From NCBI GenBank assembly GCA_029267445.1, contig JAJUIU010000019.1, positions 1 to 54,921 on the forward strand: a stretch of DNA of 54,921 nt, read 5' to 3'. Shown here piece after piece: positions 14,157 to 42,832 of the stretch (positions are counted from its first letter, which is position 1; each line of letters begins with the position of its first letter). Source of the stretch: Rhodospirillaceae bacterium (lineage in GTDB: Bacteria; Pseudomonadota; Alphaproteobacteria; Azospirillales; Azospirillaceae). Under the pieces are notes generated by a model. That model saw nothing but the letters and a program-made list of their open reading frames with translations. It ran no database searches and was not told the DNA's origin. The translations under genes were made by a program, and so were the position numbers.

Positions 14157-15561
14157 AGCGGCCCTTCTCCATGAAGCGGAGCGGATCGACGGGACGTCCG
14201 TCGACCAGCACCTCGTAGTGAACGTGGGGTCCGGTGCTGCGCCCGGTGTTGCCCAGCGTGCCGACCTGCTGGCCGTGGTTCACCTGGGCGCCGTCCTTGA
14301 CGCTGATCTGGTCGAGATGCGCGTAGCGGGTGCGGATGCCGAAGCCGTGGTCCACCTCGACCATCCGGCCGTAGCCCTCCTCCCAGCCGGTCTTGGTGAC
14401 CGTGCCGGGGGCGGTCGCCGTGACGGGCGCCCGGTACTGGGAGACCAGATCGATGCCGGTGTGCATGGCCCAGCTGCGGGTGAACGGGTCGCGCCGCTTG
14501 CCGAAGCCGCTGGAGATGTAGAAGTCGTCGACCGGGGCCGACAGCGGCAGCAGCGTGTAGAGCGCCCGCAGCCGGGCCTGCCGCTCCAGCTTGTTCTCAA
14601 GCTGGGCCATCGCCTCCGACGCCACGGCCGGGATCGCCTCGGGCGGCAGCTCGGGCAGTTCCACCATCGGGCCGCCCCGGCCGAACCGCGTGGCGTCGAG
14701 TTCCGCCAGGATCTTGTCGAGGTCGAGCCCGGTTTCCCGCAGCGAGGCCTCGGTCGAGCCGATGCGCAGCTCGGCATGCTCGGTCAGCCGGGCGAGCAGG
14801 GCGACCTGCCCCTCCTCGATGCTGGCCATGCGGCGCTCCGCCTCGGCCTTCGCGGCCATGGCGGCGTCGCGCTCGGCATTGGCGCCGGCCATGGCGACGG
14901 CCATGCGCTGCGTCTCCGCCTGCGCCTCCGCCAGCGCGCGGGCGAGGCCGGAGGTGACGGCGTGGACGTCGGCGGCGCTGGCGCCGGAGGATGTCGCCGC
15001 CACATCGGCGGAGGTCGCCGTCTGGGTCGTCGGCGAATCGGCGAGGGCGCGCCCCGCCTCGGTGATGTTGTCCAGCGACTGGGCCACGCCGGCGAGCGCC
15101 GCGTTCGGCCCCGATTCGCGCAGCTGGGCGAGTTCCTTGCGGGCGGCCGTGACGGCCTGGCGCAGCACGCGGGCCGCTGCCTCCCCCTCGCCGGCGCGGT
15201 CGAGTGCGGCCAGCGCCGTCTCCACCCGGGCCAGAGCCTCGGCGTCGGCGTCGCGCGCGGCGGCGACGGAGCCGCGCAGTCCCTCCAGCTCGCCGGCCAT
15301 GCCGGCAAGCTGGCCGCGCGTCTCCTCCAGCTGGCGGGACAGCGAATCGGCGCCCGCCTGCACGTGGCCGATGATGTCGTTGGAGCGGCCGAGTTCCAGC
15401 GCGGTCAGCCCCCATCCTGTGAGCGACGCGGCGAGGCAGACCGAGATGCCGGCGATGATGAAGGCGGGCCGCAGCCGCTGGCTGGGGCCGATCACGACGG
15501 ACCGGACGCGATCGTCCTCGACGATAATGACGCGTTCGCTACGCGTGAAGAAACTGAACAA
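14140..15561 (-). CDS. M23 family murein endopeptidase with coiled-coil stalk
   Basis: A 473-residue envelope peptidase. A short cytoplasmic tail and one membrane helix (about 34-52) lead to an Ala/Glu-rich coiled-coil region (about 60-290). A C-terminal lysostaphin-fold domain follows. The zinc ligands are His367 and Asp371 (HTGID) and His448 (HVHYE, with His446); His415 (RYAHLDQ) is the further catalytic residue. All are intact, so activity on peptidoglycan cross-links is likely. The start is a rare TTG at 15561 behind a good GGGGAGAGG ribosome site. The overlap with the bactofilin gene supports a functional pair. Confidence 0.93.
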   Translation of the reverse strand: MFSFFTRSERVIIVEDDRVRSVVIGPSQRLRPAFIIAGISVCLAASLTGWGLTALELGRSNDIIGHVQAGADSLSRQLEETRGQLAGMAGELEGLRGSVAAARDADAEALARVETALAALDRAGEGEAAARVLRQAVTAARKELAQLRESGPNAALAGVAQSLDNITEAGRALADSPTTQTATSADVAATSSGASAADVHAVTSGLARALAEAQAETQRMAVAMAGANAERDAAMAAKAEAERRMASIEEGQVALLARLTEHAELRIGSTEASLRETGLDLDKILAELDATRFGRGGPMVELPELPPEAIPAVASEAMAQLENKLERQARLRALYTLLPLSAPVDDFYISSGFGKRRDPFTRSWAMHTGIDLVSQYRAPVTATAPGTVTKTGWEEGYGRMVEVDHGFGIRTRYAHLDQISVKDGAQVNHGQQVGTLGNTGRSTGPHVHYEVLVDGRPVDPLRFMEKGRYVCEG

Positions 15562-26763: not shown

Positions 26764-26878
26764 GGGCGGTCCCCGGTCGGCGCGCCAAGGTGGGTGCGCG
26801 GCCCGCGACTATAGGGCCGCGCGCCGCCGGACCCAACGGCCCAGTACGTCGCGGCCATTCCGCCCGCGATGAACCGCC

Positions 26879-27054
26879 CCCCTCACCCGGCTCCCTCCGG
26901 TCGCCACCCTCTCCCGCGAGGGGAGAGGGGGAACTTGGCACCGGCACCGTTCTGCGGTGGCAATCGCGGGCGGAAATGTGATTGAGCGCGACCCAGGTGA
27001 ACCCTCTCCCCTTGCGGGAGAGGGTGGCGAGGCAACGCCGAGCCGGGTGAGGGG
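26879..27054. repeat. Palindromic intergenic repeat, copy C
   Basis: The best-preserved of three copies (176 bp). Arms of about 50 bases are inverse complements: CCCCTCACCCGGCTC at the left end and the inverse at the right end (GAGCCGGGTGAGGGG region). Each arm contains an inner hairpin, CCCTCTCCCgcgaGGGGAGAGGG on the left and CCCTCTCCCcttgcGGGAGAGGG on the right. The centre (about 85 bases) is unrelated to copies A and B. The element fills most of the 306-base gap between thpR and pyrF; nothing else is seen there. Confidence 0.85.
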
Positions 27055-27069
27055 TGCGGCGCCGAGGGG

Positions 27070-38509: not shown

Positions 38510-38642
38510 CGCCGTCTGTGCGCCTCCGCCACGGGGGCGGCCCCTTTCACGCCAATCCGTTTTGCGGCCGAATGATCCCGCCGCTCTTCCGAATCTAGTC
38601 CGGGCGTCGTGGGGGGTCAACGGCACCCGGATCGCACCACGA

Positions 38643-38679
38643 TGTCAGGAATAGCGCATTTCCTGTTATCGTGTCAGGA
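38643..38679. promoter_or_regulatory. Candidate ParD operator
   Basis: A perfect inverted repeat CAGGAA (38646-38651) and TTCCTG (38660-38665) with 8 bases between. The left half-site TGTCAGGA (38643-38650) is repeated directly at 38672-38679. It lies 23-59 bases before the parD start, as expected for autoregulation by a ribbon-helix-helix antitoxin. Confidence 0.5.
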
Positions 38680-38701
38680 TGCGCATGCGAAGGAGGACCG
38701 A

Positions 38702-38947
38702 ATGAACGTGTCGATCGGCGCGCGCTGGGAAGGGTTCGTGGAACGCATCGTCAAGAGCGGACGCTACGGCTCCGCCAGCGAGGTCGTGCGCGAGGGACTG
38801 CGTCTGGTGGAGGAGCGCGAGGCGAAACTCGCGGCACTGCGGGCCACCATCGACGACGCCCTGGCGGAGGAGGGCCGCTTCTCCGACGAGGAGATCGCGG
38901 CGGCGCTGGACGCGCAGGCGGCCGAGCTCGGGCGCAAGGCTCCCTAG
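38702..38947 (+). CDS. parD: ParD family antitoxin (ribbon-helix-helix)
   Basis: An 81-residue antitoxin and autorepressor. The N-terminal ribbon-helix-helix reads MNVSIGARWEGFVERIVKSG, followed by RYGSASEVVREGLRLVEERE; the acidic C-terminal half (EEGRFSDEEIAAALDAQ) wraps the toxin. A strong AAGGAGG site is 6 bases before the ATG. The stop codon abuts the parE GTG start. It is inserted between hrcA and rph. Confidence 0.93.
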   Translation: MNVSIGARWEGFVERIVKSGRYGSASEVVREGLRLVEEREAKLAALRATIDDALAEEGRFSDEEIAAALDAQAAELGRKAP

Positions 38948-39256
38948 GTGCGGACCCTGGTCTACCGGGCGGCCGCACGGCGCGACCTCATCGCGATCTT
39001 CACATACGTCGCCGGGGAGAGCGGCAGCACCGAGACGGCCCGCCGGTTCGTGGACCGCATTCGGGATCAATGCCGGAAGCTGGCGACCTTGCCGGGGACA
39101 CTCGGCCGGGCGCGGCCCGAACTGCGGCCGGGAATCCGCAGCTTCCCGTTCCAAGGCTATGTCATCTTCTTCCGGGTGACGGACACGGACCTGGAGGTCG
39201 TCACCATCGTCGAGCGCCATCGGGATGTGGAGGCGCTGTTCCAGGAACGGCCTTGA
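38948..39256 (+). CDS. parE: ParE/RelE superfamily toxin
   Basis: A 102-residue toxin starting at GTG 38948. Family features are YRAAARRDLIAIFTYVAGES, a central LPGTLGRARPELRPGIRSFP and the C-terminal FRVTDTDLEVVTIVERHRD. ParE toxins block DNA gyrase; the RelE fold is shared but no ribosome-cleaving residues can be asserted. It is translationally coupled to parD (zero spacing), as in typical type II toxin-antitoxin modules. It ends 84 bases before rph. Confidence 0.93.
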   Translation: MRTLVYRAAARRDLIAIFTYVAGESGSTETARRFVDRIRDQCRKLATLPGTLGRARPELRPGIRSFPFQGYVIFFRVTDTDLEVVTIVERHRDVEALFQERP

Positions 39257-39340
39257 CCCACGCCCGTCCACGGCGATGGACGCGGGCCCCCGGCGGCGGT
39301 ATCCCTGTCGGCCGATCCTCCGAAGCGTCAGAGCCATCCC

Positions 39341-40056
<716 letters not shown>

Positions 40057-40060
<4 letters not shown>

Positions 40061-40677
40061 CCGGCGGCACGGCCCCGCGCCGCTTCGCTGGCGACACCCT
40101 GGTCATCGCCAGCCACAACAAGGGCAAGGTGCGCGAGATCGCGGACCTGCTGGGCGCCTATGTGACGCGGTTCCCCTCCGCCGGCGAGCTCGACCTGCCG
40201 GAGCCGGAGGAGACGGAGACCACCTTCATCGGCAACGCCGCCCTGAAGGCCCGGGCCGCCGCCACGGCCAGCGGCCTGCCGGCCCTGGCGGACGACAGCG
40301 GCCTGTGGGTCGACGCGCTGGACGGCGCGCCCGGCATCTACTCCGCCCGCTGGGCCGGGCCGGAGAAGGACTTCGCGCTGGCCATGGAGAAGGTCCGGCG
40401 CGAACTGGAGGGGGCGGCGGACCGCAAGGGCGACCGGGCGAAGTTCGTCTGCTCCCTGGCGCTCGCGTGGCCGGACGGCCATGTGGAGGCGGTGGAGGGC
40501 TATGCCCACGGCCGCCTCTCGTTCCCGCCGCGCGGCACCAAGGGCTTCGGCTACGACCCGATCTTCATCCCGGACGGCTTCACCTGCACCTATGCGGAGC
40601 TGGAGCCCGACGAGAAGCACGCCATCAGCCACCGCGCCGACGCGTTCCGGCAGCTTGTGGCGAAGTGCTTCGAATAA
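40057..40677 (+). CDS. rdgB: Non-canonical purine NTP pyrophosphatase (RdgB/HAM1)
   Basis: A 206-residue house-cleaning enzyme hydrolysing dITP, XTP and ITP. Motifs are [41 protein letters not shown] (metal-binding Asp pair), [20 protein letters not shown] and the closing [14 protein letters not shown]. The start is a GTG at 40057 that overlaps the rph stop. In most alphaproteobacteria hemW follows directly; here a GxxExxY gene intervenes. Confidence 0.96.
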
Positions 40678-40761
40678 CGTTATTCTCACATCGGTTGCGC
40701 GTGGCCTGTGTTTCACACGGAAGACGCGGACTGACTCACGGACGGGCGCGGACGCGCGGCG

Positions 40762-41142
40762 ATGAGACTTGTGCTCGATCCTGAAATTGAGCGGACTACG
40801 GAAGCCATCATCGGCGCCGCCTTCGAGGTCTCCCATGTTTTGGGTAACGGGTTCGTCGAGGTCGTCTACAAGCGCGCGCTGCTGCGGGAAATGGAGCGGC
40901 GCAAACTGGCGGTCGCCGAGGAGGTGCCCTTCAAGGTGTCGTACAAGGGTGACCCGGTGGGTACCTTCTATGCGGATATCGTCGTGGAGAAACGCGTCAT
41001 CGTCGAGCTGAAGGTGGCCGAGGGCTTTACGGATGCCCACCTTATGCAGGTCGTGAACTATCTCCGGGCCAGCGGGCTGCCCGTTGGATTGCTCTTCAAC
41101 TTCGGGGTTCCGAAGGTCGCCGTGCGCCGGGTTCTCCCCTGA
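40762..41142 (+). CDS. GxxExxY family protein
   Basis: A 126-residue protein with the eponymous motif Gly30-Phe-Val-Glu33-Val-Val-Tyr36 (LGNGFVEVVYKRALLREM). It contains a PD-(D/E)XK-like core: Asp72 in FYADIVVEKR and Glu82-x-Lys84 in VIVELKVAEG, followed by a conserved HLMQVVNYLRASGLPVGLLF helix-strand. This fits a nuclease-like fold, but the biochemical role of the family is not established. It is flanked by inverted TCCGTGTGAA repeats and lies between rdgB and hemW. The upstream ribosome site is weak. Confidence 0.88.
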   Translation: MRLVLDPEIERTTEAIIGAAFEVSHVLGNGFVEVVYKRALLREMERRKLAVAEEVPFKVSYKGDPVGTFYADIVVEKRVIVELKVAEGFTDAHLMQVVNYLRASGLPVGLLFNFGVPKVAVRRVLP

Positions 41143-41174
41143 TCGCCGATCCGTGCCGTCCAGTTCCCGTCCGT

Positions 41175-41251
41175 GTCGTCCGTGTGAAGCATTCCGTACG
41201 TGTCGCCTGTGTGAATCTCCGCGTCGTCCGTGTGAAGCGTTCCGTCCGTGT
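41175..41251. repeat. Direct repeats between the GxxExxY gene and hemW
   Basis: Two 29-base units (41175-41203 and 41223-41251) agree at 27 positions and begin GTCGTCCGTGTGAAGC. The second also forms the right arm of the inverted repeat flanking the GxxExxY gene. The hemW start codon follows within 4 bases, so the repeat has replaced the normal ribosome-binding region. Confidence 0.75.
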
Positions 41252-41254
41252 GAA

Positions 41255-42421
41255 ATGCCTGAAATGCCCGATCCCGGCTTCGCGCTCTACGTCCACTGGC
41301 CGTTCTGCGCGTCCAAGTGCCCGTACTGCGACTTCAACAGCCATGTGAGGGAGCGGGTGGATCACGCGCGCTGGCGGGCGGCACTGCTGCGGGAGCTGGA
41401 CTGGTTCGCCGATCTGACGCCCGGCCGTCGTCTGACCAGCGTCTTCTTCGGCGGCGGCACCCCCTCGCTGATGGAGCCGGCGACGGTGGAGGCGGTGCTG
41501 CGCCGGGCCGACGAACGCTGGGGCCTGCCGGCGGGGACGGAGGTGACGCTGGAGGCGAACCCCACCAGCGTGGAGGCGGACCGCTTCCGCGCCTTCCGCG
41601 CCGCCGGGGTGAACCGGGTCAGCCTTGGCATCCAGGCGCTGAACGACGCGGACCTGAAGGCGCTGGGCCGCCGCCATTCAGCCGGGGAAGCGCTGGGCGC
41701 CATCCGGCTGGCCCGGGCGAGCTTCGACCGGTTCAGCTTCGACCTGATCTACGCCCGGCCCGGACAGACCGGCGCCGCCTGGGCCGAAGAGCTGAACCGC
41801 GCCCTGGACGAGGCGGTGGGGCACCTGTCGCTCTACCAGCTGACCATCGAGGAGGGGACGCAGTTCCACACCCTGCACCAGCGGGGCGAGCTGGTGCTGC
41901 CGGACGAGGACGCCCAGGCCGACCTCTACGAGATGACGCAGGCGGTGCTGGGTGCCGCTGGCCTGCCCGCCTACGAGATCTCCAACCACGCCCGGCCGGG
42001 CGAGGAGAGCCGCCACAACCTGACCTACTGGCGCTATGGCGACTATGTCGGCGTCGGGCCGGGCGCCCACGGCCGGCTGACCCTGCCCGACCGGGGCAAG
42101 GTCGGCACGCGCACCCACCGGGCGCCGGAGGCCTGGCTGGACCTGGTGGAGCGCCAGGGCAGCGGCGCCAAGCCGTTCGAGCCCGTGCCGGCGGACGCGC
42201 GACTGGCGGAGCTGCTGATGATGGGGTTGCGCCTGGCGGAGGGGGTGCCGCTGGCCCGGGTGGTCGCGGAAACCGGCCGCACGCTGGCGGATCAGGTGGA
42301 CCCGGACCGTCTGGCCCGGCTGGAGCGCCAGGGTTTCATCACCCTGTCCGAGGACAGGCTGGCGGCAACGGAGGCGGGACGGGCGCGGCTGAACGCGCTG
42401 CTGGGAACCCTGCTGGCCTAA
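41255..42421 (+). CDS. hemW: Radical SAM heme chaperone HemW
   Basis: A 388-residue protein often annotated as coproporphyrinogen III oxidase-like. The radical SAM cluster motif CASKCPYC uses Cys18, Cys22 and Cys25; FFGGGTPSL is the SAM-binding motif. The fourth cysteine of the true oxidase HemN motif is replaced by Phe (CPYCDF), which identifies the HemW heme-trafficking branch. Start ATG 41255, or 41264 as an alternative, both without a good ribosome site because of the abutting repeats. Downstream lies a convergent MarR gene. Confidence 0.93.
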   Translation: MPEMPDPGFALYVHWPFCASKCPYCDFNSHVRERVDHARWRAALLRELDWFADLTPGRRLTSVFFGGGTPSLMEPATVEAVLRRADERWGLPAGTEVTLEANPTSVEADRFRAFRAAGVNRVSLGIQALNDADLKALGRRHSAGEALGAIRLARASFDRFSFDLIYARPGQTGAAWAEELNRALDEAVGHLSLYQLTIEEGTQFHTLHQRGELVLPDEDAQADLYEMTQAVLGAAGLPAYEISNHARPGEESRHNLTYWRYGDYVGVGPGAHGRLTLPDRGKVGTRTHRAPEAWLDLVERQGSGAKPFEPVPADARLAELLMMGLRLAEGVPLARVVAETGRTLADQVDPDRLARLERQGFITLSEDRLAATEAGRARLNALLGTLLA

Positions 42422-42442
42422 GCGCGAGGCCCGGCCAGTGGG

Positions 42443-42832
42443 TCAGGCGGTGCGGCGGCGCAGGGTCGGCGGCTGTTCGTGCAGCAGGTCGGCGAGGCGC
42501 TCGGCCAGATCGCGGCCCTTGGGCGTCAGCGTAAGGATCTTGCGCCGACGTTCCCGCGGGTCCTCCTCCGACTGGATCAGGTCGTGGCCGGCCTTGCCGA
42601 AGCTGTGCCACTTCGACAGGGCCGCCACGTTGCGCGAGGCGGAGGACTGGGCGATTCCCAGCCGCTCCGACAGGTCCCGGATCGACATCCCCTCGTTCTG
42701 CGCGATCGTCAGGAACGACAGCGCGTACTGGATCGGCAGGTCGGGGTCGAGGGTGCGGAACGCCTCGAGCACCCGGACCAGCGGGTCCAGCTGGTCAGGC
42801 CGCCAGCCTGAAGCCTTCGGGTGGGTCGCCAT
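42443..42832 (-). CDS. MarR family transcriptional regulator
   Basis: A 129-residue winged-helix regulator. The helix-turn-helix reads MSIRDLSERLGIAQSSASRN and the wing follows at EEDPRERRRKILTLTPKGRD. The N-terminal dimerisation helices are short. The start at 42832 has a GGAGG site 11 bases upstream. It is the last of several small minus-strand genes (to 43492); a palindrome in their promoter region (43530-43546) is a possible autoregulatory operator. Confidence 0.88.
   Translation of the reverse strand: MATHPKASGWRPDQLDPLVRVLEAFRTLDPDLPIQYALSFLTIAQNEGMSIRDLSERLGIAQSSASRNVAALSKWHSFGKAGHDLIQSEEDPRERRRKILTLTPKGRDLAERLADLLHEQPPTLRRRTA

Follow-up and report, generated by a model that had tools for sequence, protein, structure and literature searches.

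The DNA analysed in this study, referred to as the window, is a stretch of 54,921 nucleotides of contig JAJUIU010000019.1 from a bacterium of the Rhodospirillaceae (assembly GCA_029267445.1). Between rdgB and hemW it carries a gene at 40762 to 41142 on the forward strand whose 126-residue product is a GxxExxY protein of the PD-(D/E)XK fold, as judged from profile matches, an alignment and a structural model. Profile searches matched the gene to TIGR04256 at 131.1 bits (cut-off 35) and to PF13366 at 128.5 bits (cut-off 22). The neighbouring genes encode RNase PH, RdgB/Ham1 and HemW by profile; rdgB lies to the left (40057 to 40677, forward strand) and hemW to the right (41255 to 42421, forward strand), with an ATG at 41255 or 41261 as read by eye. 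Two adjacent small open reading frames upstream of rph (38609-38947 and 38948-39256) resemble a ParD/ParE toxin-antitoxin pair by eye.

The gene is bracketed by inverted repeats. The left arm (40712 to 40757, forward strand) consists of TTCA followed by tandem CACGGAA, CGCGGAC, CACGGAC and CGCGGAC units; the array of four units begins at 40716, and positions 40712-40748 were the part aligned in bracket scoring. Three copies lie on the reverse strand to the right of the gene. The inner copy at 41150 to 41191 is the reverse complement of the left-arm units (41169-41191 by repeat search, the whole by sequence), the second at 41218 to 41236 is the closest match to the left arm (95% in the repeat search), and a distal TCCGTGTGAA copy at 41245 to 41254 ends immediately before the hemW ATG if the start codon is placed by eye at 41255. 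The repeat search reported inverted arms 23 nt (87%) and 19 nt (95%) in length; to the right it also found a direct repeat of 34 nt. A preliminary description of this DNA had noted that 40710-40730 and 41218-41238 agree inversely at 19 of 21 positions and that additional arm copies lie on the right; the same count was obtained here, and the direct repeat with the inner and distal copies bears out the second point.

Brackets were scored by aligning the 400 nt upstream of a gene with the reverse complement of the 400 nt downstream. The bracket in the window gave a local alignment score of 37. None of 2000 dinucleotide shuffles scored as high (maximum 36), and among 514 windows of matching geometry elsewhere in the stretch 2 did, both at one place (arms near 14820 and 15800). 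TCCGTGTGAA occurs four times in the 4.23-Mb genome, three times forward and once reverse, always at this locus, so that a genome search with this decamer for further copies of the arm, a step that the preliminary description had proposed, found none. Two other hairpins in the stretch (1696-1874 and 26874-27059), with CCCTCTCCC/GGGAGAGGG arms and scores of 53 and 72, are unlike the units of this element.

The predicted structure of the protein (pLDDT 95.5) has a PD-(D/E)XK-type nuclease fold, and residues invariant in a 46-row alignment include G28, E33, Y36, D72, E82, K84, Q96 and Y100. The fold of the model and the invariance of D72, E82 and K84 agree with the PD-(D/E)XK-like core that had been proposed. 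The solved structure nearest to the model was SSO0001 (4ic1; Z 10.7, rmsd 3.2 over 98 residues), which we take to be a Cas4 protein, and the next match scored 8.2; the Holliday junction resolvase Hjc (1gef) scored 7.5, a range where matches may be generic according to the tool's own warning. The top chains of the fold search are presumably nucleases of the PD-(D/E)XK fold, and we take the invariant D-ExK and Q...Y residues to be Cas4/RecB-like nuclease motifs. A sequence search with the protein returned no solved structure at E<=1, and its profile searches returned PF13366 and TIGR04256 only, with no known transposase and no HUH Y1 transposase. Membership of Cas4 itself was considered and was not accepted, since the hits to PADLOC Cas4 profiles were weak.

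GxxExxY genes are patchily distributed, with TIGR04256 matches above the cut-off in 22 of 59 genomes of the host family and, across the phylum, in 32 of 200. The host genome has five such genes. Four of them are bracketed, each with its own unit (CACGGAC type in the window, CACGGAG at L006, GC-rich at L007 and CACAGAT at L009), and the unbracketed gene, L005, has a 31-nt inverted pair that lies entirely upstream. Among 62 Pseudomonadota loci, 48 scored at least 32 and 50 scored above all 50 of their shuffles. A survey of named taxa covered 80 loci in 17 phyla, three of them archaeal; the 80 ranked highest among at least 588 relatives of one clade-A query and are not a random sample. Three were lost to short flanks, and of the 77 scorable loci 64 reached a score of 32, compared with 8 among 1299 control windows drawn with matching geometry from the same contigs; 69 of the 77 scored above all 100 shuffles, and 13 scored below 32. 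The preliminary description had suggested looking for repeats around GxxExxY genes in other taxa, and the 64 of 77 named and 48 of 62 Pseudomonadota loci show that they are common there. The bracket in the window is one case of a wider rule for GxxExxY genes.

The same architecture was seen on extrachromosomal and viral DNA. All five viral loci found in IMG/VR scored above their own shuffles; in four the arms are long and A+T-rich and use a different vocabulary. A copy on a Bacteroides plasmid likewise had a bracket above its shuffles. Eight plasmids in PLSDB encode a GxxExxY relative, and the PLSDB plasmids gave no DNA match to the one hairpin tested or to the element of the window. The viral loci L384-L387 are GxxExxY genes on contigs of 50-80 kb, with inverted arms of 66-91 nt whose tandem units are A+T-rich and bear little resemblance to those of cellular loci. 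It should be noted that L385 equals L386 in its arms and that L361 resembles L377. Arm to arm, the elements have a median length of 474.5 (quartiles 458 and 531, n=108).

The arm units follow the pattern C-[AG]-C-n-[AG]-A-[GT] and are about 9 nt long, with spacings mostly of 8-10 nt (89, 145 and 76 of 377 spacings); those in the window end mostly in C. Tandem pairs of the same unit occurred at 1.73 per kb near the gene versus 0.116 elsewhere. The unit varies between loci yet is mostly common to both arms of a locus, orthologous copies included, and the modal unit was identical in both arms at 88 of 103 loci versus a shuffled mean of 11.4 and maximum of 22. At three orthologous sites, where the arms vary from genome to genome, a locus's own arms paired better than swapped arms (n=18, p 2e-4; n=6, p 1.6e-3; n=9, p 2e-4; 1, 1 and 2 loci were lost where the search motif missed the ORF), and bases outside the units paired too, though such arm-matching tests favour the own partner because arms were selected for pairing. 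The same-geometry control windows of the named survey are free of that bias.

The unit also goes with the type of protein. Two protein shapes were distinguished, D.G[YF]R.D with units ending in G and VG.Y.AD with units ending in T or C. The comparison used 140 of 142 loci, omitting the partial genes L030 and L031, and the score cut kept 112, of which 65 had the first shape and 21 the second by strict motif counts; 17 loci were missed by the strict motif and 6 more had no countable unit. Exceptions to the rule were L115 and L123, with the D.G[YF]R.D shape and T-ending units, and L134, which was scored as the VG.Y.AD shape though it reads like D.G[YF]R.D. Conversely, L066 was scored as D.G[YF]R.D though it reads like VG.Y.AD. 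On a protein tree that is poorly resolved, the last base of the unit changed 3 times versus a mean of 17.3 and a minimum of 13 with shuffling. Unit type and protein clade go together.

One explanation for paired arms around a small gene is an element that acts at the RNA level, like the intervening sequences (IVS) of 23S rRNA, in which the gene lies in a loop, RNase III cuts the stem and the RNA stem is what is selected. GxxExxY elements do have the same anatomy as the Coxiella IVS described in PMC4990558. Genes of the four-helix-bundle family TIGR02436 are bracketed too, at 18 of 29 loci with a score of at least 32 and at 22 of 29 above all 100 shuffles; that survey took 30 loci (L147-L176), of which 1 was lost, and used shuffles alone as its control. 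Their arms have units of 7-8 nt with a vocabulary differing from that of GxxExxY, although L163, one of the 18, is not unit-like by eye. At one further place (G087:C41:115775-118796) a GxxExxY gene lies within about 2.4 kb of a four-helix-bundle gene.

Maintenance of an RNA stem would predict more G.U than A.C pairs on the sense strand. Of the 62 Pseudomonadota loci 48 entered this test and 43 survived its cut; of the 30 four-helix loci 26 entered and 17 survived. Stem mismatches across 107 GxxExxY loci were 124 G.T versus 129 A.C (p 0.80), and those of the 17 TIGR02436 loci were 6 G.T versus 21 A.C (p 0.006), as if the antisense strand were paired. The reading of the arms as an RNA stem is not supported by the GxxExxY counts, which suggest instead that the pairing is probably maintained as DNA, via recognition, a cruciform or arm-to-arm copying. 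The predicted RNA fold of the window element was barely better than its shuffles (z -1.7; 4 of 100 shuffles equally good). Rfam searches found no rRNA in the stretch from 39000 to 42500 and none in 20 sources, 19 of which were GxxExxY loci and among which L147 was the one TIGR02436 locus. The protein in the window did not match the S23p profile TIGR02436, which had 0 matches in the host genome. The existence of gene-less hairpins with target duplications, described below, is also at odds with an RNA-level element, and we regard that explanation as quite unlikely.

The history of the copy in the window can be read from its relatives. HemW was detected in all 59 genomes of the host family, and the 30 best loci were compared, that is the window and 29 relatives. 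The junction is closed in 18 of the 29, with an rdgB-hemW gap of -1 to 47 nt. Four relatives (L179, L185, L186 and L188) have another small gene at the junction, with a gap of 534-612 nt; that of L185, the one tested, belongs to the glyoxalase family by profile. In 6 no rdgB lay near enough for the junction to be judged. One relative, from a different genus, has a GxxExxY element there as in the window, with 78.3% identity over 2995 nt. The preliminary description had set two outcomes against its own reading, the absence of the repeats elsewhere and the presence of the gene at this junction in all relatives, and neither was found. Its proposal of a mobilised nuclease cassette is supported as regards the nuclease fold, the inverted arms, the closed junction and the same architecture in other taxa. 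It is not supported as regards recent mobility of this copy, given that a second genus has a copy at the same junction, that gene-bearing copies have no clear excess of target-site duplications and that many are orthologous across related genera. We infer that the copy in the window has been a long-term resident of the rdgB-hemW junction after horizontal arrival.

Such residence appears in other groups as well, as many gene-bearing copies are orthologous over wide groups of related genera. Duplications of at least 7 nt were found at 4 of 93 gene-bearing copies versus 1.6 expected (shuffled maximum 5.1), which is no clear excess; the 93 are those that passed from 80 named and 29 selected Pseudomonadota loci. 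These observations, together with unit types that follow the protein clade, are what would be expected of a resident, non-mobile unit whose nuclease reads the arms as an operator or self-target, in the manner of an autoregulated, restriction-like or toxin-like system, with co-inheritance explaining why clade and unit co-vary. However, the protein family is scattered over phyla. A tree of 80 named and 25 selected Pseudomonadota loci, one of which fell out to leave 104 rows, required 36 phylum changes, compared with a possible minimum of 16 and with a mean of 50.2 and minimum of 45 for shuffled labels; since this is fewer than with shuffled labels, phylum is still partly clustered, and 56 of the 101 inner branches of the tree are unresolved. 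That gene-bearing copies have moved is suggested by this scatter together with the junctions that are closed in relatives.

Two sites in genus g11, probably Azospirillum, for which 45 genomes were available, also speak to loss. No clean empty site for a gene-bearing copy was obtained at either. At the L023 site, 24 regions without the full element have decayed arms, nothing readable or a toxin-antitoxin-like pair; about 11 of the 24 (L237-L242, L249, L252, L255, L257 and L258) have antitoxin-like and PIN-like genes by eye, and the pair at L238, taken as an example, is MazE and PIN by profile. At the second site, whose right neighbour is prmA-like by eye, 10 genomes (L324-L331, L333 and L334) have nothing left of a former element but its right arm, which adjoins an insert of about 1.4 kb with no relation to it. 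Arm remnants after loss at these two sites, the phylum changes on a tree with few resolved forks, and gene-less hairpins in many places, two of them with empty sites, weigh against a strictly resident unit, and we consider that explanation rather unlikely.

In g11 the arm sequences are also present at places remote from the gene. Of 36 such places selected, 35 were hairpins of about 110-260 bp, although this is no unbiased rate because the places were hand-picked from BLAST and pattern hits, often for paired hits. The 16-mer CACGGATTTCACGGAT had a median of 7 copies in the 25 gene-bearing g11 genomes versus 0 in the 20 without the gene (p 9e-5; p 0.038 once up to 4 hits per genome were subtracted for the gene's own arms, with phylogeny uncontrolled), and its reversed control had 0 copies in all 45. 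In a second genus of 23 genomes with a different unit, the arm pattern was present in 17 genomes. Thirty places were taken there and 2 discarded as duplicates; of the 28 distinct places, 14 were short hairpins, 1 had a distant partner and 13 had no partner.

Insertion of such hairpins can be read directly at two of seven solo sites. At L283 a 211-bp hairpin is flanked by two copies of GGGATTGCG (9 bp), whereas five related genomes lack the insert and carry a single copy. At L290 the hairpin is flanked by GTCACGGTCC (9-10 bp), and four genomes are empty, with a single copy differing by 1-2 bases. The other five sites (L282, L285, L286, L289 and L292) gave no readable empty site; at L300, GCATAAAGG lies on either side of a hairpin by eye. 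Dispersal of the hairpins is demonstrated at L283 and L290, in one genus.

The L283 and L290 inserts have outer ends, CARGGCAATCGC, beyond the units. The duplications adjoin these ends, which were not seen on gene-bearing copies, and therefore another transposase could move the hairpins. This raises the possibility that the arms are parts of common MITE-like hairpins which some unrelated transposase mobilises, with GxxExxY a passenger or a gene that uses them to land. Clean duplications at outer ends unlike the arms would fit such a scheme, as would the 6 of 20 g11 genomes that retain 4 to 20 CACGGATTTCACGGAT copies without the gene, and so would the genes at L013, L068 and L088 that lie between repeated flanking blocks. 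(These blocks are themselves hairpin-like and the arrangement resembles a compound element, with direct-repeat scores of 250, 103 and 186.) However, most GxxExxY genes examined are bracketed, in 17 phyla and on viral contigs, and a unit that follows the protein clade is unexpected for a passenger. We judge this explanation very improbable.

The explanation that we narrowly favour as probable is that the locus forms a minimal DNA element with inverted repeats, some 470 bp long, which encodes a single protein, a Cas4/RecB-like nuclease that acts on the element's own arms. In this model the nuclease would bind the units of its arms, which resemble terminal inverted repeats, and would cut or nick at the arms or at a hairpin or cruciform that they form. 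Repair or replication of the cut could then homogenise both arms, so that pairing would be kept while the unit drifts, and could also spread the element and gene-less hairpins. After horizontal transfer, a copy could stay at one place for a very long time and then decay to arm remnants. A broader version, which we advance tentatively as a possibility short of probable, is that these are widespread minimal mobile elements of bacteria, archaea and viruses in which a lone PD-(D/E)XK nuclease recognises and co-rewrites its arms and moves both element and hairpins, with the S23p IVS as a parallel design.

The data presented in this study point to bracketed GxxExxY genes as minimal selfish DNA elements of a kind about which little is known. 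A family known mainly by the name of its motif gains a testable partner in its own flanking repeats, its elements become a possible source of the hairpin repeats scattered in genomes, and a puzzle is posed as to how arms hundreds of bases apart change sequence together. In a literature search that had most subscription papers outside its scope, the text available mentioned GxxExxY in passing, and neither any of six repeat strings nor PDDEXK_3 was found in it.

Several known systems share parts of this design. Cas4 proteins carry four cysteines for an Fe-S cluster. The GxxExxY protein of the window resembles Cas4/RecB-like nucleases in its fold (4ic1), in its D-ExK and Q...Y invariants and in its weak PADLOC Cas4 hits, but at 126 residues it has no cysteine for an Fe-S cluster, and it is linked to repeat arms of its own. 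Insertion sequences and MITEs share with these elements the terminal inverted repeats, gene-less derivatives and, at the two solo sites, duplications of 9-10 bp, whereas the GxxExxY unit has no known transposase and its gene-bearing copies no clear duplication signal. In REP/REPIN-RAYT systems an HUH Y1 transposase is accompanied by hairpins that carry no gene, lie scattered over the genome and have ends similar to those of the gene-bearing copy. The dispersal of arm-type hairpins in two other genera is similar, though this does not extend to the TCCGTGTGAA of the window, and the GxxExxY enzyme differs in being a PD-(D/E)XK protein rather than an HUH Y1 enzyme and in having tandem units as arms on either side of its gene.

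The IVS of 23S rRNA differs in that the GxxExxY family is unrelated to S23p and that the GxxExxY stems have no RNA-strand bias, but in layout it is a close parallel. According to PMC4990558, where IVS with an S23p ORF are termed selfish, the Coxiella IVS is 428 nt long and has a 28-bp terminal stem, an ORF in the loop and tandem heptamers before that ORF. Both kinds of element are thus some 430-500 nt long with one small ORF between inverted repeats and short tandem units before it, and one genomic design joins two orphan families, GxxExxY and the four-helix-bundle S23p.
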